A stretch of 64,000 nucleotides of DNA. It comes from Colwellia sp. M166 (GTDB lineage Bacteria > Pseudomonadota > Gammaproteobacteria > Enterobacterales > Alteromonadaceae). The translations under genes and the position numbers were made by a program. Numbering within the stretch: the stretch's first letter is position 1; every line of letters starts with the position of its first letter. The DNA is taken from contig NZ_CP040755.1 of the NCBI RefSeq assembly GCF_024585285.1, positions 806,001 to 870,000 on the forward strand, written 5' to 3'. The notes below the pieces were generated by a model. The model was not told where the DNA came from, did not search any database, and worked only from the letters and a program-made list of their open reading frames with translations. This document shows, one piece after another, positions 1 through 53,101 of this stretch.

Positions 1-597
1 TATTTCATCAAATGCTTTCAATGGAACTAAATCTACTCTACTTAAAGATTCACCATCGTCTGGCATAGACATCCTTTTTTGAACACCACCTATCGCAAAA
101 CTATCATTTAGTAGCTTTAAAATGCCCCCACCTGACTGCCCTACAATTTCACCATGGTTAACTGAACTATTTATTTCAGCTTCAACATAACCGTTAGCTG
201 TTTGATTCTGAATTGATAATTTATTTTGTCTATATGAAGATGTGTTTTCACGTCTAACATCAGGAAACCCACATAAATAATAATCTTCCGTCTTATTGAA
301 AAGATTATCTATTCTTAAATGCTTAGGAAGCTGACTAATGAAAGGGACTTTTAAAATTGCTGCGTCTATACCTTCATTTGCATGATAATACGGCTCACCA
401 ATAACATCCATTGACTCAATCTGTATTACTTCATTTTCACCAATTAGCTCTCTTTGCACTTGAGTTACATTAGTTCCTTCTACAACATGTCTTGCTGTTA
501 AAACATAAGTGTAGCTTTCTGATGTAGGTTGAAATAAACAACCGCTACCTTCTCCAACTTTTACTGAAAAGAGCCTAAATTTATCTATAGTACTCAT
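1..597 (-). CDS. Trypsin-like serine protease, 3' part outside window
   Basis: The first 199 codons of a chymotrypsin/trypsin-fold (S1-like) peptidase are visible; the rest lies left of the window. The triad can be read directly: His37 in TARHVV, Asp78 in GIDAAIL, and Ser155 in GQSGGGI. There is no signal peptide, so it probably acts in the cytoplasm. The ATG (597-595) shares one base with the TAA of the upstream metallo-beta-lactamase gene, which indicates translational coupling. Intracellular trypsin-like domains fused or linked to effector modules are known from bacterial conflict systems; a function here is inferred from that and from the neighbours. The missing C-terminus may carry another domain. 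The fold call is firm, the role is not. Confidence 0.8.
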   Translation of the reverse strand, partial: MSTIDKFRLFSVKVGEGSGCLFQPTSESYTYVLTARHVVEGTNVTQVQRELIGENEVIQIESMDVIGEPYYHANEGIDAAILKVPFISQLPKHLRIDNLFNKTEDYYLCGFPDVRRENTSSYRQNKLSIQNQTANGYVEAEINSSVNHGEIVGQSGGGILKLLNDSFAIGGVQKRMSMPDDGESLSRVDLVPLKAFDEI

Positions 598-1655
598 TAA
601 AATTCCATCGTATGTATTTCTGAATATTTAAAATTAGGGAAGTCAGAAACATCTTGCTCAGAGAAAACTTTTAAATTGTAATTGAATAAAAGCTCTGCAT
701 TATTGTTATGGTTTATTATTCTTGCCAAGCATTGCTTATGCGGAAGCTTATGCTTATCTCCATTTGAGCTAAGTATAAATTTGGACGTATCAACCAATTC
801 TAATAATTCGTAGCAAGTATTACTCTTACTACCATGATGAGATACCTTCATAAATTCAGCCTTTATAGGATTATCCTTACTGTAACCTAACTCATTCAAG
901 CTTTTTATTAGAAGTAAAGGATGAGCATCGCCGAGAAACAACATATTTTTCTCATTAAAGGTTAGAATAAAGGCAATTGAGCTACCATTATGAATAGATT
1001 TATCTTCTGTAAATTGATCTTGAAGTAGTAATTTCTTTATCGTTTTGTCGTAATCATCTGACTTTGCAGTATCTAGATTCTTATCCTCAGCAGTCCATTT
1101 TTTTAATAATGATTTGAGTTTCACTTCATCTGGAGAAAGTATTGTAAAACTCAAGCCAAGTTCATGTAATACTGTTTTATTTTCTAATTTTCTAATTAAC
1201 TTTCTGTCCCATATTCCATGCTTTTCAATATAGTCTTCAAATGAGATACCTTGCTTAATACTTGTATCCAAACTGCTACTGTCTTTAACTATTTGTAGAT
1301 TAGAAGAAACTTCAGGAACAGCTTTATCTTCAAAAATTAAGCGACCAGAATTAAACCAAACTTTTTTAACTAAGTCTTTAGCTAAGGGATCTTTCTCAAA
1401 CCATTTTAAAATGCCACCTATATGATCATCATCAACATGAGTTAATATTAATAAATCAATGCTCTCTTTACTCTTATGTATCTCTTGAATAGCTAGTTGT
1501 AAAGCACCAGCTTCGGGTTTACCTCTTTTATTTTTAAATTGGTATGCTCTTCCCGTACCACCATCAACTAGAATGTTTCTATTAATACCTTCTTTGTCTA
1601 CAAATGAAATAAGTATTGAATCACCATTAAATGCTTTTAAAAATTGAATTTTCAT
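597..1655 (-). CDS. ComEC-like metallo-beta-lactamase-fold hydrolase
   Basis: This 352-residue soluble protein has the metallo-beta-lactamase fold typical of ComEC/Rec2-like stand-alone enzymes. The metal motif is THVDDDHIGG (His73, Asp75, Asp77, His78), followed by FLGDAHP (about residue 243) and VSHHGSKSN (about 269), which supply further ligands. No membrane segment or ComEC competence domain is present, so it is not a DNA-uptake channel. In this family the substrate is usually a phosphodiester, nucleic acid or nucleotide, but it cannot be told here. It sits 13 bp downstream of a small membrane-protein gene and overlaps the protease gene by one base, so the three probably form one operon. 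MBL-protease pairing recalls bacterial conflict systems (inference). Confidence 0.85.
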   Translation of the reverse strand: MKIQFLKAFNGDSILISFVDKEGINRNILVDGGTGRAYQFKNKRGKPEAGALQLAIQEIHKSKESIDLLILTHVDDDHIGGILKWFEKDPLAKDLVKKVWFNSGRLIFEDKAVPEVSSNLQIVKDSSSLDTSIKQGISFEDYIEKHGIWDRKLIRKLENKTVLHELGLSFTILSPDEVKLKSLLKKWTAEDKNLDTAKSDDYDKTIKKLLLQDQFTEDKSIHNGSSIAFILTFNEKNMLFLGDAHPLLLIKSLNELGYSKDNPIKAEFMKVSHHGSKSNTCYELLELVDTSKFILSSNGDKHKLPHKQCLARIINHNNNAELLFNYNLKVFSEQDVSDFPNFKYSEIHTMEF

Positions 1656-2245: not shown

Positions 2246-2293
2246 AACTCGTTTCCTAAAACTCGTTTCCTAAAACTCGTTTCCTAAAACTCG
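2246..2293. repeat. 14-bp tandem repeat, three copies plus a half copy
   Basis: The unit AACTCGTTTCCTAA occurs at 2246-2259, 2260-2273 and 2274-2287, with a partial fourth copy to 2293. It overlaps the last codons and the stop of the recombinase gene. Because 14 is not a multiple of 3, loss or gain of one unit shifts the reading frame and changes the C-terminus. Confidence 0.95.
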
Positions 2294-2818
2294 ATAAACA
2301 GTTGTTCTTGAACAGCCAAGTGTTTTAGATATCAAGTTTTTATTCATTCCTTTAGCAAAATAATCTTTTATTTGAGAATGGAGTTTTTCATTTTTGTAAC
2401 GGCCTAAGTGGCCTCCTTGAGATTTTTTTAGTGCTCTTCCTTCTGCACAACGTTGTAATATGCGTTTTCGTTCCATCTCTGCAAATGCTGAAATGGTCGT
2501 ATAAATAACACGACCAATATCTGAGTTGATATCTACATCACCGAGATCATGCAAGATCAAACCAACACCTTTAGTTTCTAATTTATTAGCTATTTGTAAT
2601 GCATCTATTGTTGAACGAGCCAACCTGTCTGTTTTAGTCACATGAATAACATCACCAGCCCTAGCAAACTCAATCATTGAAATTAATTCAGGTCTATCCG
2701 CAGACTTACCACTTATCTTCTCCTGATATATTTTTTCACACCCCATCTTTTCCAATTGCTGTGATTGCACCTCCAAACTTTGTTCAGTTGAACTTACCCT
2801 TGCGTAGCCTATTTTCAT
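2270..2818 (-). CDS. Serine recombinase (resolvase/invertase family)
   Basis: A 182-residue small serine recombinase. The N-terminal catalytic domain starts MKIGYARVSSTEQS, with the nucleophile at Ser9 and the usual arginines in the TDRLARST segment (about 61-68). The long E helix carries AEMERKRILQRCAEGR, and the C-terminus is a helix-turn-helix ending in LISKTLGCSRTTVYRVL. Length and layout match Tn3-type resolvases and plasmid multimer-resolution or invertase enzymes. A candidate recombination site lies directly upstream (2817-2892). No cognate transposase is seen, so plasmid-type resolution or a relic of a transposon are both possible. The last three residues (NEF) are encoded by a tandem repeat, so the C-terminus may be variable. 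Confidence 0.9.
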   Translation of the reverse strand: MKIGYARVSSTEQSLEVQSQQLEKMGCEKIYQEKISGKSADRPELISMIEFARAGDVIHVTKTDRLARSTIDALQIANKLETKGVGLILHDLGDVDINSDIGRVIYTTISAFAEMERKRILQRCAEGRALKKSQGGHLGRYKNEKLHSQIKDYFAKGMNKNLISKTLGCSRTTVYRVLGNEF

Positions 2819-2956: not shown

Positions 2957-4093
2957 TCAAACTCTATTTTTAATTGATTCGATAACATCTAGCTCTATTT
3001 TCGAGATTCGAGCCACTCTTGTTGCACTCGCTAAACTATATTCAAATACTTTTTCAACTTTATCTAATTGTGAATAACCAGTTAACTCCCAAGTTTTTAA
3101 AGAATCACTATAAAATTCTTTTTCTGTTTTTAGTTCACCCGATTGAATATGTTGCTTGAATAAATCTTCAATAGATAAACTTTTCCCAAAATTATAATGA
3201 GTCTGTTTTGTCTCTTTCACCTGAAACTCAAAGTAACGTTTTGACATATGTACATCAGAGTTACCTTTCGATCTAAATGCAATTTCTAGTAATGGATTTG
3301 TCTTGCCTTGAATATATTTCTTAACAATATTCTGAGCTACGGTGATTTCCCATAAATTAATACCAAATGTATTTTTAATTTGAGTAACTTCTGTTTCTGT
3401 TAAAGTTACAAGTTCTTTTTCTGCAATCCCTTTAGCTAATTTGAAGAAAGCTTCTACCGCAATATCCTGATCTTTACTGTATTTTATATAACCATTATCT
3501 TTGTTATTTTCTATCGAATTTAATAGCCCTCTTTTTTTGCATTCTTCTAGTAATTCAGCATCGTTATATTTTGACATTGTAGATATTGAATTAGGTTTGA
3601 TCATAGATTCGTTAATAATTTCAAGTTCAATACCATCTACTTTTTCTATGTCTTTAATTAGTGTTTTTATTAACTTTGTTACTTTGAACTTAGCCCCTTC
3701 TTTAACAATAGATTCCCAATTTTTTGCAGAGCCACCTGAAGAAATTTCTCCCTCAAGTAATGCAACCCCCTCTCCTGTTGTTGCTCCACCATCTCTGCCA
3801 TTAGCCCTAGCAAAAACAAGCCCAGCAACTCCAATTGGTTTTCTCTTCTCAATTTTATTTTCGGTGAAAGTAACATAAGCACTCACTGTTTCGACTTCTG
3901 TACTACCGTCTGATCCAAATGTTTTTATCAGTTTTTGGCTAATTTCATTCTCAAAATCAGCATCAATAAGCCAACCTTGTTGTGATGCATCCCATTTAGC
4001 GTTACCTAAATTTTTTAAATAAGTACTAACTCTTGCTAAATATGGGGTAATAACCAGTATCTGAGCGTCTTGCTTTATCATTTTTATTGGCAT
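2957..4093 (-). CDS. Uncharacterised protein with HARP-like N-terminus
   Basis: A 378-residue protein of mobile-element type. Residues about 10-60 (ITPYLARVSTYLKNLG, then AKWDASQQGWLI) resemble the small module in which a Trp-Asp plus a following Trp mark a HARP-like or plasmid-protein DNA-binding fold. The rest has a Gly-rich stretch (about 95-120) and a helical, charged C-terminal half. No catalytic motif is seen. It overlaps the upstream acidic gene by one base (4093), so the two are probably co-translated. The HARP comparison is pattern recognition at moderate to low certainty; beyond that I do not know what it does. Confidence 0.55.
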   Translation of the reverse strand: MPIKMIKQDAQILVITPYLARVSTYLKNLGNAKWDASQQGWLIDADFENEISQKLIKTFGSDGSTEVETVSAYVTFTENKIEKRKPIGVAGLVFARANGRDGGATTGEGVALLEGEISSGGSAKNWESIVKEGAKFKVTKLIKTLIKDIEKVDGIELEIINESMIKPNSISTMSKYNDAELLEECKKRGLLNSIENNKDNGYIKYSKDQDIAVEAFFKLAKGIAEKELVTLTETEVTQIKNTFGINLWEITVAQNIVKKYIQGKTNPLLEIAFRSKGNSDVHMSKRYFEFQVKETKQTHYNFGKSLSIEDLFKQHIQSGELKTEKEFYSDSLKTWELTGYSQLDKVEKVFEYSLASATRVARISKIELDVIESIKNRV

Positions 4094-5352
4094 TATTTCG
4101 CTCCTTGCTGATTAGCAGCATTTTCATTAACCTCAAACTCTAACCAAGAAAGCGCAGCCAATCTGATCTGCTTCTTCAACACTTTTAAAATTAATTCACT
4201 ATCAAAATCAAACTTTTCCCCATTTATTTCATAGCATTTGAGCAATATTTTCGTTTCCAATACGTAAAGTGAAATAAATTGTTCCGCAATTCTCTCTTCA
4301 ATTTTTTTAATATCATCGTCAAATTCATCAATATCATAATTTTCTTTAACTGAGCTGAGTGACACATCAATAAAATGATCGACTTTAGTGCCATTAATAA
4401 AGTCTTGTGTGAATTCGTTCAAAGAAGGCTTTAGCAAATTGTTAGGAACAAGCGTCAGTGATTCGATTAATAATTTTGGGTTTGAATCTAATAAATTTTC
4501 AAATAAAAAACCATAACCGTCTTCATAATCAATTATCTCGTAATCACTGATTTCATTAAAAAATAATGTTTTAAACTCATCATAAGAGTCAAAATCCAAT
4601 TGATTGAAACTTTCATCAAGATATATTTGTGCAATACTCGGTAAATCACAGTAATGAATATAATTTTCTTCATTATTTTCCGTATGACTTACTTTAATTA
4701 TGTGCTTTGGTAATTTGTTGTGTATCTCAATTAAGCGATCCTCAATAGCTGGAAACAATGTTCTTGGTGGTTCGAATGAATATTCATGTTCAAATTTAGA
4801 CTTCACGTCATCGTCAGTAACTTGATAAAAAACAAAACTTTTAAATTTCAAAGTTAGCTTGTTTTTTCGAACAATAAATTCAATTTGCATATCTGCATCA
4901 TCTTCAGTGATAATTTGACAAAATATTTCCCTATCAGTATTCCCAAACTTCATTGTTTGAATCTGATTAATGAATTTCATTTCACCTTTTATTGCAAAAT
5001 CTTCATATGCTTTAAGCGTTCTGTCGACATCAAAACAATTTAAAGCTTCGAAAACTATTTTATCCAAAAAATTTACTATTTGAGTAAAAGTTGCTTGTTG
5101 CTGTTCCAACAGATATCCATCATCAACATTTTTGAGTTTCTTTAATAATATTTCTTTCGCGTCACCATAAATACTTGCGTCAATTTTGCTTCGGCACTCT
5201 TCTAGAAACTTAAGTGAATTCAGTTTTGATAACTTGTGATCTGGTTGAAGCCTATAATTGACTTCATTAGTTAATTCTTCTCGTAATAATTTACTCATTT
5301 CTTCCAAAATGGCTGAAAATGTTTGTTGTTGATCTTTTCTTAAATTATTCAT
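4093..5352 (-). CDS. Uncharacterised acidic protein, first gene of a two-gene unit
   Basis: A 419-residue, strongly acidic soluble protein (runs such as YDIDEFDDDIKKIEE near 350-365) with no signal peptide, membrane segment or known catalytic motif. It begins MNNLRKDQQQ, close to MNNLTNEQQQQ of the next acidic gene (5564-6541), and both are preceded by a near-identical leader of about 110 bp. The stop overlaps the start of the following gene. Shared leader and N-terminal residues suggest the two acidic genes are coordinately expressed or arose by duplication of the leader. Acidic composition beside an anti-CRISPR homologue invites the idea of a DNA-mimic inhibitor, but nothing in the sequence proves it. 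Confidence 0.6.
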   Translation of the reverse strand: MNNLRKDQQQTFSAILEEMSKLLREELTNEVNYRLQPDHKLSKLNSLKFLEECRSKIDASIYGDAKEILLKKLKNVDDGYLLEQQQATFTQIVNFLDKIVFEALNCFDVDRTLKAYEDFAIKGEMKFINQIQTMKFGNTDREIFCQIITEDDADMQIEFIVRKNKLTLKFKSFVFYQVTDDDVKSKFEHEYSFEPPRTLFPAIEDRLIEIHNKLPKHIIKVSHTENNEENYIHYCDLPSIAQIYLDESFNQLDFDSYDEFKTLFFNEISDYEIIDYEDGYGFLFENLLDSNPKLLIESLTLVPNNLLKPSLNEFTQDFINGTKVDHFIDVSLSSVKENYDIDEFDDDIKKIEERIAEQFISLYVLETKILLKCYEINGEKFDFDSELILKVLKKQIRLAALSWLEFEVNENAANQQGAK

Positions 5353-5563: not shown

Positions 5564-6541
5564 TTAGGTATTACAGGACAGAATAGCCTCTACGACTCCA
5601 TCTGTGATGTCATGCTGACTACCTCGCATGTAATCAATATCAATATTTTTGTCGCAATTAAAAAGCATACTGTAGCCATCATCAGTACATAACTCATCCA
5701 AGAAACCCACATTACGTGAAAAGTCGCTCTCAAATTCAGAACCAAACACATACTCAGAAATATGTTCATACAACTCATCTTCATTACTATGTGAAACATC
5801 CCCTTCAGGAATTTCGTCATCTGTATACTGCTCAATTAATTTATTTTTACATTCATTTTCAAAGACCCATATTTTATGTTTTTGAAAATTTGACAATTTA
5901 AAAGTACTTACTAAATTATGAGCACAAAGCAACTGCATTAATTCGGCAAAGTCATCATCATTAATATTCCTTGGTCGAAATTCTGTTACTGCGGTCAATA
6001 AGCCACAACGATATGTATGTCTACTGAATGATTCATTAATTAAAGATTTTGTTAATGCTTTAAAATCATCAAAGATGCTAAAACTGTTTGTATCTGACTC
6101 CAGAACGGATTGTTCTAATAATTGAGAACGTATTTCTTCTATTAGCTTGTTTTTATCATCCGCACCGATACATTGAATTGCTTTCAGAACTGGTAACATA
6201 AATTCGAAATCATAACTTTCACTTAATTGTAGATATGTAGATTCATATAAATAGACATGTCCAGAATTAGGCGTTTCTAAGCAAATAATGGTTTTATCAA
6301 AATCTGGGTATTCTATTTGATTTAACTGCTTATTTATAAACTCATCAATGTTTTCATTATTGACGCTATAGGATTTTTCACTAAATAATGAATAAAAAAC
6401 ATCATCATTAGAAAAACCTTCTTCAAGGAATGTAATCAAAAGATCAATCTGTTTATTTTTTGAAATTTTAGACCACTGTTTTACTAAAAAATCTTGTTGC
6501 TGTTGCTCATTAGTTAAATTATTCATATTAATATTCTCCAT
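5564..6541 (-). CDS. Uncharacterised acidic protein sharing leader with 4093-5352
   Basis: A 325-residue, very acidic soluble protein beginning MENINMNNLTNEQQQQ; a second start at MNNL (five codons in) corresponds to the start of its neighbour. No recognised motif. It carries many Asp/Glu clusters such as NINDDDFAEL (about 195-204) and VSHSNEDELYEH. It lies between the AcrVA2 homologue and the other acidic gene, all on the same strand, each with its own leader. I do not recognise the family. A mobile-element accessory or counter-defence role is suggested by neighbours only. Confidence 0.6.
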   Translation of the reverse strand: MENINMNNLTNEQQQQDFLVKQWSKISKNKQIDLLITFLEEGFSNDDVFYSLFSEKSYSVNNENIDEFINKQLNQIEYPDFDKTIICLETPNSGHVYLYESTYLQLSESYDFEFMLPVLKAIQCIGADDKNKLIEEIRSQLLEQSVLESDTNSFSIFDDFKALTKSLINESFSRHTYRCGLLTAVTEFRPRNINDDDFAELMQLLCAHNLVSTFKLSNFQKHKIWVFENECKNKLIEQYTDDEIPEGDVSHSNEDELYEHISEYVFGSEFESDFSRNVGFLDELCTDDGYSMLFNCDKNIDIDYMRGSQHDITDGVVEAILSCNT

Positions 6542-6669: not shown

Positions 6670-7689
6670 TTATGCAGCGGCATTAATTACCGTTGGGTGC
6701 CACCAGTTATAGATAAACTTGCGGTCAGGGCTATTTCGTTTACCTGTCCAAACACCGTGATAATGACCACGCCTAATATGTGGTGTGGGGCTATTGTGAG
6801 ATTTACCTTTGGCTTCCTCAGGAATAATTATTTGTTTCGCGAGTCTTTTGCCAACTTGCCATACTGTAGAATGCTTAGGTGGTATTAGAGTTTGATTTTT
6901 CTTCCCTTTTTTAACGCGAGGTCTGCATGGCAGTTGATTTTGAATTCTTTCAATGTCGGGTTCGTCAATACAAAGATATAACAGCAATGAAAGACATTTT
7001 TGAACAATTGGTAATCTTTCATCTACCATCTCTTTACGCAATATTTCACAGTCAATCTCATTATGTTGTTTTGAAGATTCAACAAAAAAACGATTAAGCC
7101 CTTCTTTAATTGTCCATTCTCCTAAATGCATAGTTAGCGGAAATAAATCATTTTCAATATCAAGCAAAAAACGTATCTGTGTTCTATCTCTCACATGATC
7201 GTATTCTAAGTGAGCAAAGAACCCATCTATGTTCATAAAATTGGGGGTTTTAATATAAACAGACCATTCTGGTATCCTATGAAGCACTGCAACTGGGATA
7301 TTGCCTTTTAATTCATTTTTACCTATTGATTCATAAACACTTGACTCATACTCGTAGATACTCTTGGTCAGCCGCCACGGGGCAAGCGCAGCGAGCTTTT
7401 CAACCACACCAAAAGTAATACTCTGAATATTTTCAAATTCTTTGTAAATCGTTGAAACAGCATCATATGCTTCTACAGGAGCAAAACACCAAGCAGGTCT
7501 GGTTTTTGAACCATATATAGGATGCTTACGCACAGTATCAATCATTTTCCATGCCTGAGGATAACGTTTAGTTAAAGCGTTTAAATGATCGATTGGTTCA
7601 AGTTTTTTATTTGACTCTTGAAAAGAGTAAATTTGACATTCACTATCATCTTGATTTGTGAATATAGAAGGAGTTAATTTTTTATTCAT
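6670..7689 (-). CDS. AcrVA2-family anti-CRISPR homologue
   Basis: A 339-residue soluble protein that I match to AcrVA2, the type V-A (Cas12a) anti-CRISPR first found in Moraxella bovoculi. Shared features in the same order are a Trp-Arg segment LAPWRLTKSIYEYE (about 105-118), PEWSVYI (about 145), LLYLCIDEPDIE (about 238-249), WQVGKRLA (about 281) and the C-terminal block PHIRRGHYHGVWTG, then a W.P.V.N ending. AcrVA2 lowers Cas12a levels co-translationally by recognising the nascent Cas12a N-terminus; whether this distant homologue does so is unknown. AcrVA2 relatives are known to occur widely on plasmids, also in hosts without Cas12a. No cas12a gene is visible in the window. Confidence 0.8.
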   Translation of the reverse strand: MNKKLTPSIFTNQDDSECQIYSFQESNKKLEPIDHLNALTKRYPQAWKMIDTVRKHPIYGSKTRPAWCFAPVEAYDAVSTIYKEFENIQSITFGVVEKLAALAPWRLTKSIYEYESSVYESIGKNELKGNIPVAVLHRIPEWSVYIKTPNFMNIDGFFAHLEYDHVRDRTQIRFLLDIENDLFPLTMHLGEWTIKEGLNRFFVESSKQHNEIDCEILRKEMVDERLPIVQKCLSLLLYLCIDEPDIERIQNQLPCRPRVKKGKKNQTLIPPKHSTVWQVGKRLAKQIIIPEEAKGKSHNSPTPHIRRGHYHGVWTGKRNSPDRKFIYNWWHPTVINAAA

Positions 7690-7976: not shown

Positions 7977-8228
7977 TTAAAAAGTGTAGCTAGGATATAA
8001 AAAGTTACGTTTCATTTGCCATATATCAGCTTTATCTTCATTGGTAATTCTCTGTATGCCATTACCATATCTGCTATTTATTTGATCTATAATATGTGAA
8101 ACTGCCGCAGCCATTTTCTGGAAGTTATTGGTTGCGGTTGGAAACTCAAAGATTAATAATTTCTCTACTAAAAAGTTATATAGCAATAAGTTTAGTCTCA
8201 ATAAACAGGTAACTATTTCATTACCCAT
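7977..8228 (-). pseudogene. UmuC (DNA polymerase V) C-terminal fragment
   Basis: An 83-codon ORF whose second half, from AAAVSHIIDQINSRYGNG to WQMKRNFLYPSYTF, matches the end of Y-family polymerase UmuC (compare the family pattern ID.IN.RYG...WQMKR..LSP.YTT). The polymerase catalytic part is absent; the first 25 residues do not resemble UmuC. It also stops short of the usual DELP-like end. It is best read as a relic of a plasmid- or element-borne umuDC operon. The gene upstream on the same strand (8248-8673) is unrelated. A small real gene made from the fragment is not excluded. Confidence 0.6.
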
Positions 8229-13987: not shown

Positions 13988-15895
13988 TTATTCTTTATTT
14001 AAAACAATAACTTTATATCCATTCTCTCTAATTTGATCCAAATCTTGATCACTTAATTTGACTAGGCTATTGGCTGAGTTAGTAAAACTCCTGTGAATTG
14101 CGAAACATAGTAAGTGTGTAGGCCTCGTCATGCCCACATAAAGCACTTTTTTCTTTGCTATAGCGCTCTTTTGACGTTTTCCTTTTAAAAGTGGCAAAAG
14201 TTGATGTAAGTCGTAGGTTCTATTATATGTTTCCAAAATCAAAGTTGCAGTATGGGTTTCTCCTTTAGCTTTATGTATTTTTGAAAAATAAATATCTATA
14301 GGTGAACCGTCAACAATGAATGAAGTTTTATTTGGTTCTTCTTTAATTTTTGCTGGTCTATAATTTATAAGTAAGCTGGTTAGTAGAGTTTTCTCGTACT
14401 TAAAATTTAAGAATTTAGCAAGAGATTGAATTGATTTTTCAAGGTATAGATTAAGATCTGTCTCATAGGGCAATTCTTCAAATATATTAAGAGAGTTTAG
14501 TTTGAGTTCATCGTGAAGCACTTTACTATTGAGCTTAATGTAGTGTATTAATGTCCTTACGGAAAAAGCCTTATCTTCATTCTTTATCCCTATTTCATCA
14601 ACGTATTGAACTAGCAAGTTCCAATAAATATTATTAATAAAGCAAGGCGTAACTTCACAGTGACTATTGGAAAGTATATATCTAAGATTGTCTCCACCGA
14701 CTAATTCAGGAGGTTTTACGGTATGTGAATCAACATAGCTCGGTATTGTATGACGATCATTAACTTTTCCTATATTTCCAACCGCTTTGAATATAGGGTT
14801 ATCTTCCAAATGTAAGTTGTGACTCTTAATTAACTCTGCAAATTTAGGTAAGACTTCATCAATATCTTCATCATCGAATACTATGACTACAGGATCAATT
14901 TCTACTTTGCTATAGCTAATAAGTTTATGGTCTGTTATTGAAAAACTGCTGGCGACCTTACATATTTTTGGCGATAATCTCTTTGTGTTTGGTATATTAA
15001 TATGATCATCATCGACATCCCATGTCAATACATCTGAACTTTCAAAATTGAATATAGATTGGTCGTTATCACCAATTCTTTGAATGATAGAGTCCGAGTT
15101 TTCAAAAATCATTCTCAACAGTTCAAATTGTTTATTATCTGTATCTTGTGTCTCATCAACAAAAACATATTTGAATCTTGCACTAATGACACTCGCTATC
15201 TCAGGAACTTCTTCTAAGTATGATTTTCCAAATTCATAGCAATGATTATATGTCAAATAACCTCTTGAGATTATTTCATTTACAACTTGATTTTTAAGGT
15301 AAGATTTCATTTGGGCATAAAATGGCTTTTTGCTGTAAACCATTATTTTTTCCCTTCCTCCAGATAGCTTTAACGAAATTTTGGTGTCATGTATCTCCAA
15401 GTTATCAAGAAATTTCTCAACATTTTTAAACTTATTCTCTTGGCATCGCTCTAATAAAATCCTTCCTATCCAATGAGAGGTCATTAAAGAAACTAACTTT
15501 TCATGAAATATTTCAGAATCTATTGTTTTCGGTTTTTTACCGAAAAGTTTTACATACATTGGGATTGCCAAGTATTTATTCACAAAAGATTGAAATGTAC
15601 CTACATGATTGGGATATCCTAAAAGTTTACTCCCATTAAGTCCGAGCTTATGTTTGATCTCATCAACAGCAACATTGGTGTGAGTCAGAACTAAAATTCC
15701 ACTTTTATTCGGAAATGGCATTTTGCAAGCAAGTATATCCAGCTTAGCTACCAGAGAAGTAGTTTTGCCTGCGCCAGGACAAGCCTGTATATCTTTTGTA
15801 ACAGCACATTTGATAAACGCCTTACTTCCGTCATCAAACTTTAAGGATAGTTTTTTCTCTACATCTAAAATATCTTGATCTGTTATCAAGTTCAT
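13988..15895 (-). CDS. gajB: Gabija GajB-like UvrD/PcrA helicase
   Basis: A 635-residue superfamily 1 helicase: Walker [10 protein letters not shown] (about 37-45), motif Ia [12 protein letters not shown], Walker [10 protein letters not shown] (about 250-258), motif III region IGDNDQSIF, motif [11 protein letters not shown] (about 549-558) and motif [15 protein letters not shown] (about 598-610). Such helicases paired with an OLD-type ATPase nuclease make the Gabija anti-phage system, in which GajB senses DNA ends or nucleotide changes and works in a complex with GajA. It starts two bp after the stop of the GajA-like gene, as expected. It is longer than the Bacillus cereus GajB of about 494 residues. 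Confidence in the pair is high because both partners and the order agree. Confidence 0.85.
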
Positions 15896-15897: not shown

Positions 15898-17772
15898 TTA
15901 TTTGCCCGTCACATTCTTAATAGCATCTACAAGATAGGAAAGGTTTTCATCTGCTTCTACGCCATCAAAGTCAGCGTCAATGATCAAATCTGCGAAAACT
16001 TGAGCTACTACAGCTTTTGATAACTGCTTGTCGAGCATGGTTTTCTTATAGATATTGTAAGCTATTTCATCATCGCTTAATTCATCTTTCCACATTTTAA
16101 ATTCGACTTTCGCATCTTCAATGAATATCACCTTTTCATCTTCTTGATATACATAGTCCTTTGACTTTGTTTTATGGCAAATATAAACAGCTTGGTGGAA
16201 TAACTCACTCAAGCAACTTTTAGCAATGCTATATTCAAGAGTCCAATGAGGTGCAACAAAAGTAGTTACTGGTGCTTCAAATTTATTTCGAATGTCTTGA
16301 GCTGTCATTATTCTTTTAGCTTCAATTTCTTCTGGGGTCATATCTACTTTAATATTCTTACCTTCTCCATCTTTAATATTCCCCCCTTCTGCGTCTTTTT
16401 TATTTTTGGTTTGTTTATCTTCATGAATAGACGGTTTTACATCTACATCTGTTATCAATGAAATATCGAGATTTAACTTTTTGTCATCCTTTCTCAAGAA
16501 GATATTTGAATAGCGTAAAAATGCTGTACTACCAACGTTTACGATAGAAACACCATGTTGTGAAAGGTCACGACCTAGTTTTTTTGCAAAAGAAGGCAAA
16601 AGAATGTTTTCTGCATCTCCTTCGACTAGAATCACTCCATTAGCAAAAAACAAATTAGACTTAGTTGAATCAAGGAAACGTTCAAGAAATAGATAGTCTC
16701 CTTCCCTCAGCATCGTGTACTCTTTGCCCATTGGATAAAGGTTCCCTCCCTTGCACAAGATTATACTTTTCAATTTGACTTTAGACGCCAAGCTAGTGCT
16801 ATGTGTTGTGAGTATGAATTGAATTTGACTATCATCACTAATTTTTTGGATAGCTTCAATTAATCTGATTTGTGTTTGTGGATGTAAATGAGCTTCAATT
16901 TCTTCGATTAGTCCCAATTTCAAACCTTGATAGGTGCTCTTTTTTAGTAGTAATAGCTCTGCGGCTATGTACAACAGGTTATGTGAACCAAGACCATGGT
17001 TGTTGTTCTCAGATAGAGGCTGATTGAATAGTTTGAGAGATAGTTTCTCTAAAACAGATTTTAGGGAGCTATCACTTACATTAAACCTTGAATTTAGTTT
17101 GTTGTTTTCAAGGGAGAAACCATCAAGATATGTGTTTATATCTTCAAGTAAGTCTTTCCCTTTATGTGTTGTAAAAAACTTCTCGATGGCCTTATTAGTT
17201 AAGGACATTATTCGAAGTAATCTATTGTTCTCTTCATCCTCGAAAATATCATGGTTATAAAGTATTTGAGATAGGCGAGAGCCTTTCTTAGGTGTTAGTT
17301 CGCTCTCAGCATCACGAAGTGGTTTTAAGTATGTTGCTCTTAGCAAATCACGAGCTTCGCCATGAATTGTAGACCCTTCATCGTCACTACCCGCTTTAAA
17401 ATCGTAAAAGACCCTACCATTTTTTCTTGAAGCTGAAATCCATACATTTAAAAAATATTTTTTGTCATTATCTGTACCAAGCCACTCAATAAAGTGCTTT
17501 GCTTCGTGTTTATCAAATCCCTTAAATGTACACTCAATGCGAAATTCTGTGGTTCGTTGGGATTCACCTTTACTTGATTCTAAGTAAAAGTCCTCTAGGC
17601 AAGGTCTGAAATACTCATAACTTTGAGTGTTTAACACATATTTAATCGCATCAACGATCGCCGTCTTGCCTGAATCATTTTCACCGACTAATAAATTTAA
17701 ACCAGAATTGAACTCAACCTCTAGTTTTTCATATCTTCTAAAGTTATCTAATTTTAAACTATGTAAAAACAT
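15898..17772 (-). CDS. gajA: Gabija GajA-like OLD ATPase/TOPRIM nuclease
   Basis: A 624-residue class 2 OLD protein. Residues 1-350 form an ABC/SMC-type ATPase: Walker [12 protein letters not shown] (about 29-39), Walker [12 protein letters not shown] (about 286-296) and H-loop LTTHST (about 321). The C-terminal TOPRIM nuclease shows the Glu of ILVEGDAEN (about 383-391) and the Asp pair of [10 protein letters not shown] (about 435-444). A charged insert rich in Lys, Glu and Gly (about 450-475) lies inside the TOPRIM part. In Gabija, GajA is a nickase inhibited by nucleotides until phage replication depletes them. It is the upstream gene of a two-gene operon with gajB. Confidence 0.87.
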
Positions 17773-18250: not shown

Positions 18251-18456
18251 GAATACTGCATATTCTCATGCATCGCGATCACCTAATACCATCTAAGCCG
18301 ATCACTTAATACTATCCATCGCGATCACTCAATACCATCGATGCAGATCACTTTTTGGTCAAAATGGTATTGAGTGATCGGCTTGAATGGTATCGTTCAA
18401 TTTATACTCATTTTTGTCTATCCAGTAGGTGTTTCTAACCGTTATTCTTTTCATTT

Positions 18457-20019
18457 TTGATGATGAGAATAACCATGCCAACGGCACCTATTTCAATGCG
18501 TAAACTTAAAGAGATTTTAAGACTAAAATACGACTGTAAACTCAGTCATCGAAAGATAGCAAACAGCTTATCTATTTCACCTTCAATTGTTTCTAAATAT
18601 GCCTGTAAATCAGCAGAGTTAGGTATCACTTGCTGGCCGCTTGATGAAAAATGGGATGATCATTCTCTGCAACGAGCATTCTTCAAAACAAAGCCCCGAC
18701 TAAAAGGCTTTAGTATTCCTGACTGGTTGTTAGTTCAGCAGGAGCTGCGACCCAAAACCATGACGCTATTGCTGCTTTGGCAAGAATACAAAGAGCGACA
18801 CGAGGAAGGATTTTACAGTTACACCCACTTCTGCCGACAGTACAAGGCATGGCTTAAATGTCAAAAACCGTCCATGCGACAAAACCATAAAGCAGGTGAA
18901 AAACTGTTTGTTGATTACTGCGGCCCAACTATGAATATTGTTGATGCTAGTACAGGTGAATACCGTACAGCTCAAGTGTTTGTCGCAGTTATGGGCGCAT
19001 CTAATTATACGTATGCGGAGGCAACGTATAGCCAAAAGCTAGAAGATTGGGTGATGAGTCATGCTCGCTGTTTTGAGTTTCTTGGTGGTGTGCCAGAGCT
19101 GGTAATCCCTGACAACTTAAAAAGTGCGGTAACTAAACCTTGTCGATATGAGCCTGATTTAAATCCAACCTACCAACAATTGGCGACACATTATGATACG
19201 GTCATTGTGCCTGCTAGACCTTATAAGCCCAAGGATAAAGCCAAAGCAGAAGTGGGTGTGCAAATTGTCGAACGCTGGATAATGGCACGGCTTCGCAATG
19301 AAAGCTTCTTTAGCTTGCGCCAATTAAACCTAAAGATACAAAAACTGCTTGTCGACTTAAACCAGCGGAAAATGAAGAAGCACCCTGGTTCAAGGCTCAG
19401 TCAGTTTGAATCCATTGATAAACCTGCTCTCAAACCACTACCCACACAGGCTTACAGTTACACCTTAGTCAAACAAGTAAGCGTGCATATTGATTATCAT
19501 GTCGAAGTTGAAAAACACTACTACTCAGTACCTCATACCTTGATCAAACAAAAGCTTGAAGCCCATGCCACAGGTCAACTGGTGACACTTTACCATCAGG
19601 GTGTTCAAGTAGCCGTTCACCCAAGATCACACCGAGAAGGTGCACACACCACGCTTGATCTACATATGCCAATAGCTCATCAAAAGCAGCAGCAATGGTC
19701 ACCACAACGGTTCGAACGTTGGGCAGCTAAGTTCGGTGGTTCAACGGAGCAGTTTGTTATGCAATTGATGCAAGCTAAAAAGCATCCAGAGCAAAGCTAC
19801 CGTGCTTGTATGGGGTTATTAAGCCTAGGTAAGAAGTTTACTGACCAACGTCTTGAAGCAGCCTGTCATCGCGCATTAGCCACAGGTGTTACTCGCGTAA
19901 AACAAGTAAAAAACATTTTAGAAAAGGGCTTGGATAAGCAACCCTTGCCACAAGCTCAAGGTGATTTACTACAAGATATTGATCATAAAAATATCCGCGG
20001 CAACAACTATTACCATTAA
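18457..20019 (+). CDS. istA: IS21-family transposase IstA
   Basis: A 520-residue DDE transposase. An N-terminal helix-turn-helix (MRKLKEILRLKYDCKLSHRK, then SISPSIVSKYA) is followed by the retroviral-integrase-like core: Asp in LFVDYCGP (about 152), Asp in VIPDNLKSAV (about 219) and Glu in KAKAEVGVQIVERW (about 266-272). It ends with the usual basic C-terminus. The istB gene follows 28 bp downstream, as in other IS21 elements. The ORF appears intact, so the element may be active. Confidence 0.95.
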   Translation: MMMRITMPTAPISMRKLKEILRLKYDCKLSHRKIANSLSISPSIVSKYACKSAELGITCWPLDEKWDDHSLQRAFFKTKPRLKGFSIPDWLLVQQELRPKTMTLLLLWQEYKERHEEGFYSYTHFCRQYKAWLKCQKPSMRQNHKAGEKLFVDYCGPTMNIVDASTGEYRTAQVFVAVMGASNYTYAEATYSQKLEDWVMSHARCFEFLGGVPELVIPDNLKSAVTKPCRYEPDLNPTYQQLATHYDTVIVPARPYKPKDKAKAEVGVQIVERWIMARLRNESFFSLRQLNLKIQKLLVDLNQRKMKKHPGSRLSQFESIDKPALKPLPTQAYSYTLVKQVSVHIDYHVEVEKHYYSVPHTLIKQKLEAHATGQLVTLYHQGVQVAVHPRSHREGAHTTLDLHMPIAHQKQQQWSPQRFERWAAKFGGSTEQFVMQLMQAKKHPEQSYRACMGLLSLGKKFTDQRLEAACHRALATGVTRVKQVKNILEKGLDKQPLPQAQGDLLQDIDHKNIRGNNYYH

Positions 20020-20047
20020 TCAAAACTAACAAACCAAAGGAAATCTT

Positions 20048-27736: not shown

Positions 27737-28390
27737 ATGTTTTTAGTAAAGGCAAGAGTAAACAATGGCACACGTATCGGCTTCGCCTGTGTGCCATTTC
27801 TTGATGAGGATAGTCCTCATGCTCCTTTAAGAATTACGAAAAGGATTTTCGAAATGAAGAAATACAAATATCAGATAAAAACAGCAAAATACAACAGCAA
27901 GAATAGTGAAATACTGTGTGAATTGAGCTTTAAAGCTCAAGACAAATCAGAATACAAAAAAATAAAAAGTTTTATTGCCACAACTTTTTTGAACCAGATA
28001 AAAAGATCAAAACAGCATTTAGTCCCCGATACAAAAACACAGCGATTGACGATGCGTTTTTCTGAGGATATGCATTTATTCATAACCTCTTTAAAACATG
28101 CTTCTGGACTTAATTATAATGATTTATTCGAAATATTAATGCGTAAAGCAAAGATCATTATTACAGAACCAGACCCTGTAATGGCAGTTCTGGAACAGCA
28201 AAGGCTAAGTGAAATAAACAAACTCAGAGCAGAATTAGCAGCAACATTTAAAAATATGAATCAAATAGCCAAACACATAAATACAGTAGCAATTGACGAT
28301 TATAAAGATTTTGACCCGAATGAGATTAATGCCACATTACTAAGTATTGATTGTGCCTTATGTGATATTAGAGGTGTTTATGATCGCTAA
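27737..28390 (+). CDS. MobC-like mobilization accessory protein
   Basis: A 217-residue protein. The C-terminal half carries the MobC-type helix EINKLRAELAATFKNMNQIA, continuing KHIN (about 162-185), which matches the NNLNQIA.N pattern of relaxosome accessory proteins. A ribbon-helix-helix-like segment TQRLTMRFSEDMHLFITSLK precedes it. It overlaps the relaxase start by 11 bp, the normal arrangement in mobilization operons. It should bind the transfer origin and help the relaxase nick. Confidence 0.78.
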   Translation: MFLVKARVNNGTRIGFACVPFLDEDSPHAPLRITKRIFEMKKYKYQIKTAKYNSKNSEILCELSFKAQDKSEYKKIKSFIATTFLNQIKRSKQHLVPDTKTQRLTMRFSEDMHLFITSLKHASGLNYNDLFEILMRKAKIIITEPDPVMAVLEQQRLSEINKLRAELAATFKNMNQIAKHINTVAIDDYKDFDPNEINATLLSIDCALCDIRGVYDR

Positions 28391-29597
28391 ATTTTGCTCA
28401 GCAAAGGCTAAACCTACAGTCATGGCAAACTACCTGTTAAATGACCGTTTAGATGATCATACCGCTCAATGTATTTATGGTGATAAAAATGTTTGGCTCA
28501 ATAAAATGCGTGGATTTAAAGCTAATCACCCGTATTTATCATTTGTTTATGCTTTTTCTGGTATTGATTCTGAAAAACTGACACCTGAAATAGAACAAAA
28601 TGTTATTCAGCAGTTTTTAGATGTTTATTGTCCAGAAATTCCAAAGCCATTTCTCAATATTTTAGCGGTGAAACATGAGGATAAGGGGAATAATGAAATT
28701 CATATTTTATTATCAAATATGCGGTATGACAGTAACAAAATGGTTAGATTCAGTCCATCTCATAAAGGGGAATATTTAAAAAAGTTACAGCTATTACAAA
28801 AGAAAATTAATAACCAGCATGGTTTTGAAAACCCAAATGATATCAAACAAACCAATACCATCATTGATACATTTAAAATGCTAAAAACCAGTAAAGAAAG
28901 ATTAAGTTGCCTTACAACTTTGATAGAAGAAAAGGTTGCTGATAATCAAATTGGTTCAAGGGATGAAATTATAAAACATCTCAACCAGCTTGGCTTTAAT
29001 GTTAATCGCATTGGTAAGAACTACATTTCGATTAAAAACGATGAGATGCGCGTATCAGTAAGATTAAAAGGGGTTTTCTATGGAGAGGACTCAATAAATG
29101 AAATGATCCGTTACAGGCACAATTTGAAGTCTTCTAAGACTGGTTCAGGTTTTTCACTTGATGATGAAAAGGAACTGACGAGAATAGTAGATAAGCATGC
29201 CCAAAAACTGAAACAGTCATTTTTAAAATATCAGAACAGTACTAAAGCATTAAATAAACAAAATGATATTCAACGTCAAAAAAATACTAAAGCACAAAAT
29301 ATAAAAATAAAATCAAGGAAGAAAAACAATGGAAAATTTAGTAACGCAATTAACAAAATATCAAGAGCAATTAAAAATATTGCACGATTTGCAAAAGATC
29401 ATTTCAAGCAATCAGATGCTAATAAACAAACGAAACTCACAGATAGACGAATTACTAAAGCAAAATCAGAAACTTCAAAACTGCTTGCAAGATTCTTTAA
29501 TTCACAACCAGCACCTTATACAACAACTACAGGAGTCATCATAGAAACGAATAAAATAAACAAAAATGAGTCACATACCAAAATAAATAAAAATTAA
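28380..29597 (+). CDS. Relaxase (MobA/VirD2-like mobilization protein)
   Basis: Start chosen at 28380 (MIAKFCSAKAKPT), which overlaps mobC by 11 bp; an upstream ATG at 28347 lies well inside mobC. The metal motif is KHEDKGNNEIHILLS (about residues 97-111), with the H.D....H.H-like arrangement of MobA/VirD2 relaxases in a variant form. A Tyr near the N-terminus (Y18 or Y33) is a candidate nucleophile. The last 130 residues are basic and low in complexity, and they overlap a nested small gene in another frame (29329-29544). Confidence 0.78.
   Translation: MIAKFCSAKAKPTVMANYLLNDRLDDHTAQCIYGDKNVWLNKMRGFKANHPYLSFVYAFSGIDSEKLTPEIEQNVIQQFLDVYCPEIPKPFLNILAVKHEDKGNNEIHILLSNMRYDSNKMVRFSPSHKGEYLKKLQLLQKKINNQHGFENPNDIKQTNTIIDTFKMLKTSKERLSCLTTLIEEKVADNQIGSRDEIIKHLNQLGFNVNRIGKNYISIKNDEMRVSVRLKGVFYGEDSINEMIRYRHNLKSSKTGSGFSLDDEKELTRIVDKHAQKLKQSFLKYQNSTKALNKQNDIQRQKNTKAQNIKIKSRKKNNGKFSNAINKISRAIKNIARFAKDHFKQSDANKQTKLTDRRITKAKSETSKLLARFFNSQPAPYTTTTGVIIETNKINKNESHTKINKN
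29329..29544 (+). CDS. Coiled-coil protein nested in the relaxase gene
   Basis: A 71-residue ORF in a different frame inside the relaxase 3' end. It starts MENLVTQLTKYQEQLKILHD after an AAGGAAG ribosome site and is a Gln/Leu-rich coiled coil (QNQKLQNCLQDSLIHNQHL). A related start (MDTLIKQLS, then NLQQII) appears in the degenerate cassette at 30878, also behind a relaxase 3' end and a good ribosome site. That recurrence argues for real translation. ColE1-type plasmids likewise carry mobB/mobD inside mobA. Its role is probably relaxase accessory (inference). Confidence 0.6.
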   Translation: MENLVTQLTKYQEQLKILHDLQKIISSNQMLINKRNSQIDELLKQNQKLQNCLQDSLIHNQHLIQQLQESS

Positions 29598-32798: not shown

Positions 32799-33064
32799 AA
32801 CAAATTACATTACTTGAATGGGCTGAAAAAAATTATAGTAAAAAATTCGGTATAGGCACTTTGAATAAATGGGCGAGAAATAATTTGATAACTCCTGCTC
32901 CAGTAAAAATAGGAGGAAGTTGGCTAGTTCATCCTAATGCTACTTATGTTCAGAAAACTATTGAATGTAAAAGAACAGAACATGCTTTAAAAGAGTTAAA
33001 ACAGTCAATACCAGTAAACTTTAAGCTAAATAATAGAACTCAAAGGATTATAAATAATGGCTAA
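32795..33064 (+). CDS. Excisionase-like protein
   Basis: An 89-residue winged-helix protein. MKQITLLEWAEKNY, GTLNKWARNNLITPAPVKIG and a following Trp-Leu-Val (SWLVHPNA) match lambda-type Xis proteins (HTH MerR-like with a beta wing). It overlaps the integrase start by 8 bp. Together with the integrase it forms the excision/integration module of the element. Confidence 0.8.
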   Translation: MKQITLLEWAEKNYSKKFGIGTLNKWARNNLITPAPVKIGGSWLVHPNATYVQKTIECKRTEHALKELKQSIPVNFKLNNRTQRIINNG

Positions 33065-34322
33065 ACCACGTAACAATTTAAACGCGCACAATATAAAAAA
33101 CCTATATATTAAAAAAGACAAACGTAGCAAGACAGGCTTTTCTTGCCAGTATAAAGATCCTCGCTTTAATGATCCTAGGTTCCCTGACGCAGTAAAGCAA
33201 TTTCACAGTCTTGGGTCTGATATTGTTGCAGCTAAAGAAGAGGCTATTGAGCTAAATGCAGTTTTATATGGAAAGATCGCCAATGCAAAAGTAAATAGAG
33301 TTTTAACTCCTCCATCAAATACCTGCACAGGTATTCAATTAAAAGTGTGGCTTGAACAATATCTATCTTATTGTAGAAAAAAGTTAAAAAATGGAGAAAT
33401 CAAGCCGAATACTTTCAAAATTAAGAAAAATATTACTATGGCTATTCATAAGGCTCATGGTGATTTATTTTTCGCAGACATTAATGTCCGTAAAATTGCT
33501 GAATTACTTAATAGTTATATAAAATTAGATCAAAATCGAATGGCTCAATCTGTTCGATCTATATATATTGATATTTATAAAATAGCTATTGGCAACGGTA
33601 TTGATAACATAACCGTTAATATTGCATCTATGACAATAAACCCTGATGCAAAAGTCAAACGTGAACGCTTAAGCTTTCCTCATTTTGAAAAAATTATTGA
33701 GGCTTATAAATATGAACCTCATAGACTATCGGCTTTACTCGCTGTTATAACAGGGCAACGAAGAACTGATTTATGTTTAATGAGAAAACGTAAAGGTAAA
33801 GATTGGGATGAACGTTATAAGGCATACAGGCTAAATCCAAACCACTTTGTTAATAATGATTACACAAGCTTTGCTGATTTAGTAAAATATGCACCTTATT
33901 CATTCGTTGAAGATGATCAGCTTTGTGTATTTCAACTGAAAACAGGAAACCTATTAAGAATACCCTTAAGTTTAAGTCTGGAAAAACTCAACTTATCTGT
34001 CGGTGATGTGATTAATAAAGCTAACTTATTTAAATTCTCACCTTTCGTACTTCACCATACTACGGCTAGAGCAGTAAATAAATTGGGTGATCCGTTACAT
34101 GCAGATACAGTTTCAAGAACTTTCGCCAAAGCTATTATAGCAACTGGTATTGAATATATTTTGAAGCCTCCTTCATTCCATGAATTAAGATCATTATCTG
34201 AACGGGAGTATAAAGATCAAGGAGTAAATACAAAAAAACTATTAGGGCATAAACATGAGAAAATGACTGATGAATATGATGACCTTCGTGGTTGTGATTG
34301 GGAAAAAGTAGATAGTATTTAA
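33057..34322 (+). CDS. Tyrosine integrase
   Basis: A 421-residue phage-type tyrosine recombinase. The N-terminal arm-binding and core-binding domains (about 1-200) lead to the catalytic domain, with Arg in ITGQRRTDL (about 231-239), HELRSL (about 382-387), LLGHKHEKMTDEYDD (about 399-413) containing the last His and the nucleophile Tyr. All expected residues are present, so it may be active. It reads toward the end of the element. The attachment site is not obvious; no tRNA lies here. Confidence 0.9.
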   Translation: MAKPRNNLNAHNIKNLYIKKDKRSKTGFSCQYKDPRFNDPRFPDAVKQFHSLGSDIVAAKEEAIELNAVLYGKIANAKVNRVLTPPSNTCTGIQLKVWLEQYLSYCRKKLKNGEIKPNTFKIKKNITMAIHKAHGDLFFADINVRKIAELLNSYIKLDQNRMAQSVRSIYIDIYKIAIGNGIDNITVNIASMTINPDAKVKRERLSFPHFEKIIEAYKYEPHRLSALLAVITGQRRTDLCLMRKRKGKDWDERYKAYRLNPNHFVNNDYTSFADLVKYAPYSFVEDDQLCVFQLKTGNLLRIPLSLSLEKLNLSVGDVINKANLFKFSPFVLHHTTARAVNKLGDPLHADTVSRTFAKAIIATGIEYILKPPSFHELRSLSEREYKDQGVNTKKLLGHKHEKMTDEYDDLRGCDWEKVDSI

Positions 34323-34462: not shown

Positions 34463-35155
34463 TTAGCTTACTGACCAATGCCAAGTTGACCTGTAGATGG
34501 TTCTATTCATTGGATTCCAAGTCACTTGCTCCCACATAGGTTTTCCATTAGTAAACTTACAGTCATCACTTAGCTTTTGATAAACTTCTTGTGTTATCCT
34601 TGTAGGGTAATCATTCGAAAGACTGCCAAGTTTTGCTGCATGATTTGCTGCACGCCCAACCCAAACTAAATCATTTGACCCTCGTATACCTGTTCTTGCT
34701 ACAAATAAGTCAGAACTATCTATGCCAATGGTATGCTGTACTTCATAATTAGAACTTTGATAGTTCTTTTTCAAGATGGGATTTATAATATTCAATCTTG
34801 CATCATTAATTTGAAGAGCCGCTTTTGCTGCCCTAGAGTTCATTCTATCACCAATAAAAACAGCCATAATTCTATCGCCATCGTAAGAAGTTATTTCCCC
34901 TGATTGTGATCTAATTATTTTGGCTGAACAGTGTAAGTAAGTCTTATAAACTTCTGCTGCGAAAAAGTCATTTTTAGTATCAACCAACTTTGTAGATTCG
35001 GATAAATCTGCATATAAAACGACTGCGTGAAGTTTAACGGCATCATTCGATAATCGCAGAGCTTCAGCTGAAGGAACGTTTTGGCCTTTACGTTCTGACC
35101 ATTGTTCACTAAAAATTTTATTAACTTGGGCTTCCAAGTCGTTTCTGAGAGTCAT
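34463..35155 (-). CDS. Pycsar-type pyrimidine cyclase (PycC-like)
   Basis: A 230-residue class III nucleotide cyclase. First metal-binding Asp in VVLYADLSESTKL (about residue 50) and second in SYDGDRIMAVF (about 94). The following GRAANHAAKLG (about 177-187) supplies further active-site residues. Pycsar cyclases make cCMP or cUMP in response to phage; base specificity cannot be read here with certainty. It lies 6 bp downstream of a two- to three-helix membrane protein of PycTM type, which should be the effector. The pair directly abuts the integrase of a mobile element, which fits a defence cargo. Confidence 0.82.
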   Translation of the reverse strand: MTLRNDLEAQVNKIFSEQWSERKGQNVPSAEALRLSNDAVKLHAVVLYADLSESTKLVDTKNDFFAAEVYKTYLHCSAKIIRSQSGEITSYDGDRIMAVFIGDRMNSRAAKAALQINDARLNIINPILKKNYQSSNYEVQHTIGIDSSDLFVARTGIRGSNDLVWVGRAANHAAKLGSLSNDYPTRITQEVYQKLSDDCKFTNGKPMWEQVTWNPMNRTIYRSTWHWSVS

Positions 35156-35161
35156 AATTAT

Positions 35162-35632
35162 CTATGTATAAATTAAATAAATTGAAAGCAGCCATATAGG
35201 AAAGCTCAATAATAAGTAAACCGATGACTTCTTAATATACCCATACTTACTTTTTGCTATTTCAGCATTTCTGTATGCTTGATTAATTAAATCATCTAAA
35301 TATTCATCATCACTTAATTGTTTTATTTTTTCATGAAAATCTTCATTACTTTGTTTTGCTATTCCACCAAAATATAAATTGGAAGTATTTGGGCCGAGCA
35401 ATGAAGGGAACATTGTAAATGCCATATTGCCAATACTATAAATTAATAGTGAAGCACAAATAACTACAAATATGCCTGAAACTAGTGACCATGAGGTGGC
35501 AGCTTTCGCTAAAGCTGAAAGCACTCCTAGCATAGATATATTTATTGCAAATAGAGCTGGAACCTTTGCATCAGCGGTTTTGACCCAATCTAATTGAAGT
35601 TGTAAAATTTTTTCAGCACGCTCTATTTTCAT
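35162..35632 (-). CDS. Pycsar-type membrane effector (PycTM-like)
   Basis: Start taken at MKIERAEKIL (35632); an upstream ATG at 35659 adds nine residues. The 156-residue protein has the helix QLQLDWVKTADAKVPALFAI, two membrane segments (about 27-45 and 50-72) and a cytoplasmic stretch FGGIAKQSNEDFHEKIKQLS, then a last hydrophobic helix. This order, ADxK helix followed by membrane helices and a helix with LYFGGIA, matches PycTM effectors, which damage the membrane on sensing the cyclic pyrimidine. It precedes the cyclase by 6 bp. The effector role is inferred from the pairing. Confidence 0.72.
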   Translation of the reverse strand: MKIERAEKILQLQLDWVKTADAKVPALFAINISMLGVLSALAKAATSWSLVSGIFVVICASLLIYSIGNMAFTMFPSLLGPNTSNLYFGGIAKQSNEDFHEKIKQLSDDEYLDDLINQAYRNAEIAKSKYGYIKKSSVYLLLSFPIWLLSIYLIYT

Positions 35633-35794
35633 TCTAGAAATCAATATAATCGAAAACATGTACTTTATAAGACTAAATATATTATAGCTATATAAGAATA
35701 TGGAAATTGATGAATGGTGGATTAGTTGTCTATTAGGGTAAGGTTAGGTCTAGCTATTCTGTACACTGCCCCCCTGTTGTTGACCGCTTCTATT

Positions 35795-35970: not shown

Positions 35971-36168
35971 CACGTAAGCCATTGATTTATATGCAACGAC
36001 AGATATTGCCCATACAAATAAACAATATCGATTTCACAGTTGATAAGTCAGGTTGGTTAGCCACAGATAAATTCCTATTTTTTCTTCAAATAAATCGACG
36101 GATGATAAATACTATAACAATAAACCATTATTCAATGACTCTGGTTTGAATTCAAGTATTGAAAACAA

Positions 36169-52314: not shown

Positions 52315-52400
52315 TGGTACCCGGAGACGGACTTGAACCGTCACGCTCTATGAGCGAGGGATTTTAAATCCCTTGTGTCTACCAATTCCACCACCCGGGC
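52315..52400 (-). tRNA. tRNA-Leu (UAA), copy 1
   Basis: 86 bases including encoded CCA. Acceptor GCCCGGG pairs with CCGGGTA; the anticodon loop has TAA. Variable arm present, as usual for Leu. Confidence 0.96.
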
Positions 52401-52479
52401 AACGAGGAGTATTTTTAACGTAATCTTGGTAACTACGTTCTTCTTATTTGCATGATAATGAAATAAGAGATTGAAATAT

Positions 52480-52555: not shown

Positions 52556-52589
52556 TTCGTAGAACTTTAAATACATCTCTAAACAAAAG

Positions 52590-53098: not shown

Positions 53099-53101
53099 AA
53101 A

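Follow-up and report, generated by a model that had tools for sequence, protein, structure and literature searches.

What does a relative of an anti-Cas12a protein do in a bacterium in which no cas12a gene is detected? The question is raised by a 64,000-nucleotide stretch of the Colwellia sp. M166 genome (contig NZ_CP040755.1, positions 806,001 to 870,000 of the forward strand; hereafter the window, to which coordinates refer unless marked otherwise), where a gene for a 339-residue protein resembling the anti-CRISPR AcrVA2 lies on an integrated mobile element. What AcrVA2 recognises is the LSKT peptide at the nascent N-terminus of Cas12a, and the cas12a mRNA is degraded during translation; the crystal complex of AcrVA2 was obtained with a different Cas12a peptide (PMC13131331). 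According to a meeting report, tagged Cas9 and Cas12f can also be reduced via mRNA degradation (PMC12908700).

One protein family with AcrVA2 and FinQ

6670..7689, minus strand: AcrVA2/FinQ-family gene, 339 residues
6757..6783, minus strand: codons for P303-H311, the family motif PH[IL]RRxH[WY]H (here PHIRRGHYH), from the conservation count and the sequence

Judged by sequence comparison, AcrVA2, the plasmid fertility inhibitor FinQ and the Colwellia protein are one protein family. Directly established for the Colwellia protein are its homology, the common predicted fold, the C-terminal motif and the setting on a mobile defence island. The first-pass annotation had called it an AcrVA2 homologue, correctly as to sequence and fold, and had proposed a profile search and structure prediction as checks; the protein matches 7ci1, the AcrVA2 crystal sequence (E 2e-17, 66.5 bits), its match to the AcrVA2-family profile (PF26125 / phrog_6160) is significant (phrog_6160 E 6.8e-54), and the predicted structure has the AcrVA2 fold. 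It differs from Moraxella AcrVA2 (PDB 7ci1/7ci2) in its low identity (18-26%), in a stretch of some 25 N-terminal residues predicted with low confidence, in falling into a separate clade and in having a host without detected Cas12a or Cas1. The host genome (4,844,971 bases, one contig) holds one copy of the gene.

FinQ of IncI1 plasmids (UniProt FINQ_ECOLX), a fertility inhibitor sequenced in 1989, is matched as well (BLASTP E 5e-18, 27% over 265 columns; hhalign profile comparison E 7.8e-33), and the two proteins are equally remote from 7ci1 (65.3 bits for FinQ). FinQ is reported to block transcription of F tra, a target on a plasmid other than its own, and is listed among fertility-inhibition factors, which seem to be linked to conjugation-transmissible plasmids (PMC5696584). 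Conjugative plasmids make up 517 of the 546 records matched by FinQ, 30 of them at less than 60% identity. Family, predicted fold, motif and carriage on a mobile element are thus common to FinQ and the Colwellia protein, whereas FinQ has its own clade and resides mostly on conjugative plasmids; the Colwellia gene is carried by an integrated element that has defence genes, and no F-type TraC was found in its host. In one annotated record (L053:7728-8819) FinQ is given a late start (259 residues), where the open frame yields 363.

The C-terminal motif, defined in this analysis, reads PHIRRGHYH at residues 303-311; H304, R306, H309 and H311 correspond to H312, R314, H317 and H319 of FinQ. Across 74 hand-chosen rows, H304 and R306 are kept in all 74, H309 in 73, H311 in 71 and R307 in 68, and these five are the sole charged or histidine positions among those kept in at least 67 of the 74. 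The count of 74 of 74 does not extend to all family members, because the rows left out include motif-less or divergent ones: the proteins of L012, L014, L015 and L034 end before the motif, are frame-shifted before it or lack it (P0017 resembles the L015 protein), and the reviewed FinQ entry P0078, also left out, has a different sequence at this place. Mean identity between four clades is 6-15% over residues 27-90 and 33-49% over residues 301-339, a pattern that suggests a conserved C-terminal effector site joined to a changing recognition part.

Two trees place the Colwellia protein outside the clades of both characterized relatives. Its own clade includes proteins from Shewanella, Marinomonas and Vibrio (an 18-row set in tree 1, support 100/99; a 12-row set in tree 2, Shimodaira-Hasegawa-like approximate likelihood ratio (SH-aLRT) 99). 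A separate clade, without the Colwellia protein, unites the Mcat5, Shewanella-phage and M. osloensis proteins (100/99 in tree 1, 100 in tree 2), and another consists of seven FinQ rows (SH-aLRT 99, tree 2). The Mcat5 protein (7ci1 E 6.7e-127) and the Shewanella-phage protein stand in for the 7ci1 sequence, which is not in the trees. The latter protein, from phage vB_SbaS_Y11, is gammaproteobacterial like the Colwellia protein and was named AcrVA2 from homology and structure (PMC10846135), but it matches 7ci1 far more strongly (E 1.5e-72) and groups with the Moraxella proteins, as the Colwellia protein does not. Tree 1 has 86 rows, with four identical rows merged; P0017, P0026, P0028, P0037 and P0038 were left out, and loci L016, L018, L023, L025, L035 and L046 do not appear in it. 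Tree 2, built on the 74 rows of the conservation count, comes from a quick search without bootstrap. Alignment A1 comprises the Colwellia protein and 32 of 38 matches (P0001, P0026, P0028 and P0036-P0038 left out). Deep branching order differs between the trees: FinQ joined the AcrVA2 clade, by long branches, in tree 1 (97/58) but did not do so in tree 2, and no sister relationship is claimed.

Database names for the family are already mixed. One Kosakonia protein goes by "protein finQ" in its NCBI record and by "AcrVA2 family anti-CRISPR protein" in the UniRef one, and FinQ is also the name given to some Acinetobacter members, so curators may have noticed the link. In a searched PubMed Central library (no bioRxiv, few subscription papers), FinQ was found together neither with AcrVA2 nor with anti-CRISPR; three articles there mention both fertility inhibition and anti-CRISPR, and passages of one of these draw no such connection. 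At the C-terminal motif the 829-member FinQ cluster and the reviewed FinQ entry (P0078) do not agree, and the link could have been missed in print through this divergence.

The reading favoured here, with slightly more confidence than doubt, is that the Colwellia protein is an expression inhibitor of the FinQ/AcrVA2 type used between mobile elements, acting through translation-linked loss of mRNA. It would lower the expression of some gene in a rival element, whether an incoming conjugative element or a phage, and the rival's mRNA would disappear while being translated, as reported for AcrVA2 on cas12a mRNA. With FinQ, the reported block of F tra transcription may reflect this activity directed at another target. 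Since the family includes FinQ, a competing mobile element is a likelier object of silencing by this gene than a CRISPR system undetected in the host.

A mobile element with defence genes

The first-pass annotation had placed the gene in a plasmid-like block, and this proves to be a real element, an integrated one of 55.5 kb between 19-bp direct attachment (att) repeats; it bears several defence-type gene sets which that annotation lacked.

35995..36013, no strand: right 19-bp att repeat, a direct repeat whose left copy lies at C1:786489, outside the window
33057..34322, plus strand: tyrosine integrase of the element (PF00589 E 3.2e-10, above cut-off)
28347..29597, plus strand: relaxase-like protein, nearest MbeA (NCBIfam NF047848 E 5.8e-18, PF03432 E 1.3e-4, both below cut-off)
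597..1655, minus strand: LmuA-like (Lamassu) metallo-beta-lactamase-fold protein (PADLOC LmuA E 1.9e-113)
13988..15895, minus strand: GajB-like helicase (Gabija; PADLOC E 5.3e-164)
15898..17772, minus strand: GajA-like ATPase/nuclease (Gabija; PADLOC E 4.6e-220)
34463..35155, minus strand: Pycsar cyclase PycC (PADLOC E 7.1e-100)
35162..35659, minus strand: Pycsar-type membrane effector (PycTM / 2TM; PADLOC 2TM effector E 3e-40, PycTM E 1.3e-34)

The gene around the left att copy, which we take from its motif to be a low-molecular-weight tyrosine phosphatase, carries the repeat at its MGNICR loop, and the right flank retains an old 5' end of this gene. Among 16 other genomes, the joined flanks match in one piece, as an empty site, in four relatives (G014, G010, G007 and G002); in 11 the match is fragmented or confined to the left side, and one genome, 66% complete, has no match. 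The element is probably mobilizable, a grading held at that level because both relaxase matches fall below curated cut-offs.

Defence-type matches on the element are to Upx, LmuB (two open reading frames, ORFs), LmuA, GajA, GajB, PycC and PycTM (PADLOC), and the Lamassu-like and Gabija-like genes stand on either side of the AcrVA2/FinQ-family gene. Such company would suit a stand-alone defence gene, a further system of the island by which phage mRNAs would be eliminated through translation-linked loss of the same kind. This explanation is unlikely, however: PADLOC 2.0.0 has no family for the protein, and many of its relatives are phage-borne, which fits counter-defence or competition better. 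Members occur on phages (46 records), viral contigs (36 loci), plasmids and bacterial contigs (15 loci).

Several other features of the element and its flank may be recorded. The Pycsar pair of cyclase and 2TM effector (34463-35659) sits directly inside the right att site. The LmuB-like ATPase is spread over two adjoining ORFs (L057:15587-18313 and 18313-18759, minus strand), which match separate parts of one profile (positions 142-1004 and 1-130), and the gene may be broken or split. Upx is a 1225-residue protein (L057:3747-7424, minus strand; PADLOC E 3.5e-186). At L057:7491-13205 (minus strand) four adjoining genes encode proteins of 183, 476, 979 (SMC-like by eye) and 265 residues, in what we take to be a layout resembling JetABCD/Wadjet; their sole PADLOC match is a weak one of the 979-residue protein to LmuB (E 2.9e-4), and they form an unassigned candidate for an SMC-type defence gene set. 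An IS21-type pair lies within the element (18457-20812), its first gene 88-89% identical to copies on Pseudoalteromonas and Alteromonas plasmids; plasmid DNA similarity of the first 20 kb was limited to the IS21 and GajB region (6 records). Right of the element are repeated tRNA gene arrays (52315-53308 and 59501-60272; Leu-taa, Gly-gcc and Cys; six Val-tac).

Targets and genomic company

Could Cas12a be the target after all? Neither cas12a nor cas1 was found in the host genome by model search, the cas1 model being positive in 9 of 14 controls. Applied to 394 genomes of the order and to 15 genomes that have a family member (the host's own included, that of L015 not among them), the cas12a model gave no positive; among 369 genomes of the class it gave one. 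It was silent in all controls of the own-genome, family-genome and order searches, and it is taken to work because of the positive in the class. As far as the models reach, Cas12a is therefore excluded as a target in Colwellia sp. M166, and an anti-CRISPR function, implied by the name given in the first-pass annotation, is unproven and unlikely in this host. That annotation had allowed for type V-A in this host, which the genome does not bear out, for type V-A in another host of the element, or for a wider target of the family, an idea strengthened by the inclusion of FinQ.

Cas12a may still be a target in other hosts of the element, and a working anti-CRISPR useful in hosts that bear type V-A would agree with the AcrVA2 homology and fold, with the changes of host that mobile elements make and with the inhibition of MbCas12a in P. 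aeruginosa by AcrVA2 and its ortholog AcrVA2.1 (PMC7556299). Shuffled-score comparisons also lean this way: the Colwellia protein scores higher to two of three AcrVA2-clade proteins (z 50.7 for Shewanella phage Y11, 44.2 for M. osloensis) than to FinQ (32.3), although it is no closer to the Mcat5 protein (31.5) than to FinQ. Its position outside the AcrVA2 clade, the distance from 7ci1 that it shares with FinQ and the near absence of cas12a make this explanation unlikely, and Cas12a improbable as the target here.

Immediately around the gene lie the following.

5564..6541, minus strand: next gene downstream, 325-residue acidic protein, no family found
4093..5352, minus strand: 419-residue acidic protein, no family found apart from a Pfam match at chance level (E 0.092)
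2957..4093, minus strand: 378-residue protein, phrog_18108 (function unknown; E 2.4e-17)
2270..2818, minus strand: serine recombinase (resolvase; PF00239 E 2.5e-36)

That the protein regulates the element's own transfer, replication or cargo genes and has no outside target is very improbable: the gene is indeed followed on the minus strand by three co-directional uncharacterised genes, with no terminator-like site found between them, but clustering of 1023 ORFs around family loci gave no family in more than five loci, the resolvase alone among window neighbours within 9 kb has relatives near other members (two loci), and FinQ acts on a different plasmid. The 419-residue neighbour has no relative in viral contigs. 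On the other side, a short ORF (7977-8228) matches DUF4113 (E 1.2e-7) and, weakly, the UmuC C-terminus, and is likely a umuC remnant.

Counting the host's own genome, family members occur in one of the 17 genus genomes, four of the 394 order genomes (two by partial matches) and three of the 369 class genomes. An earlier survey reported AcrVA2 homologues from two phyla, none of them adjoining an Aca gene in RefSeq (PMC6739104). Loci L006, L019, L026 and L033 share upstream genes for proteins of 430 and 170-210 residues that were not found in the window. In 4 of the 11 annotated loci (L055, L058, L059 and L060, among L053-L055 and L058-L065) the records' own labels give restriction, antirestriction or DGQHR/PAPS-reductase genes in the same stretch; the last are presumably phosphorothioate-like.

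Silencing of a competing mobile element, the reading favoured above, has several points against it. FinQ has been described as a Rho-independent transcription terminator and not as an mRNA-decay factor, and fold and motif alone do not prove a common mechanism for FinQ and AcrVA2. With the LSKT motif (from PMC13131331) and a looser search pattern of our own, no LSKT-like motif was found within residues 1-45 of any of 33 proteins from the F transfer region, such patterns lying only deeper inside TraN (137), TraG (613, 744) and TraS (169), so the recognition rule of AcrVA2 is not simply transferable to FinQ. If mobilizable, the element needs a conjugative helper, and blanket fertility inhibition would therefore harm it. 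No resident rival is visible, since two models found neither TraC_F nor a VirB4-type conjugation ATPase in the host, and no target of the Colwellia protein was found. The higher scores to the Y11 and M. osloensis proteins count on the same side.

Implications for the family

The surprise is at the level of the family, in which an anti-CRISPR and a classical fertility inhibitor stand together. A wider proposal, plausible but more tentative, is that FinQ and AcrVA2 are one machine, which recognises a chosen nascent peptide and has the mRNA of that peptide destroyed; its C-terminal effector site would be nearly invariant and its recognition part free to change. Such a machine would serve plasmids, phages and mobile defence islands in silencing each other; the "transcription termination" of 1989 in the F tra operon would be translation-linked mRNA loss, the Cas12a inhibitor a specialised offshoot, and the Colwellia protein a third, defence-island branch.

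Membership of one family connects a fertility inhibitor sequenced in 1989 with a mode of action new to bacteria, that of an anti-CRISPR which brings about destruction of a nascent protein's mRNA, and thereby makes both the old mechanism of FinQ and the origin of AcrVA2 directly testable. It also cautions that homology to AcrVA2 alone is no basis for inferring CRISPR inhibition. If FinQ and AcrVA2 work alike, some database "AcrVA2 family anti-CRISPR" proteins would be misnamed as to target, and FinQ and F in E. coli K-12 would offer a simple and classical system in which to test nascent-peptide-guided mRNA decay.
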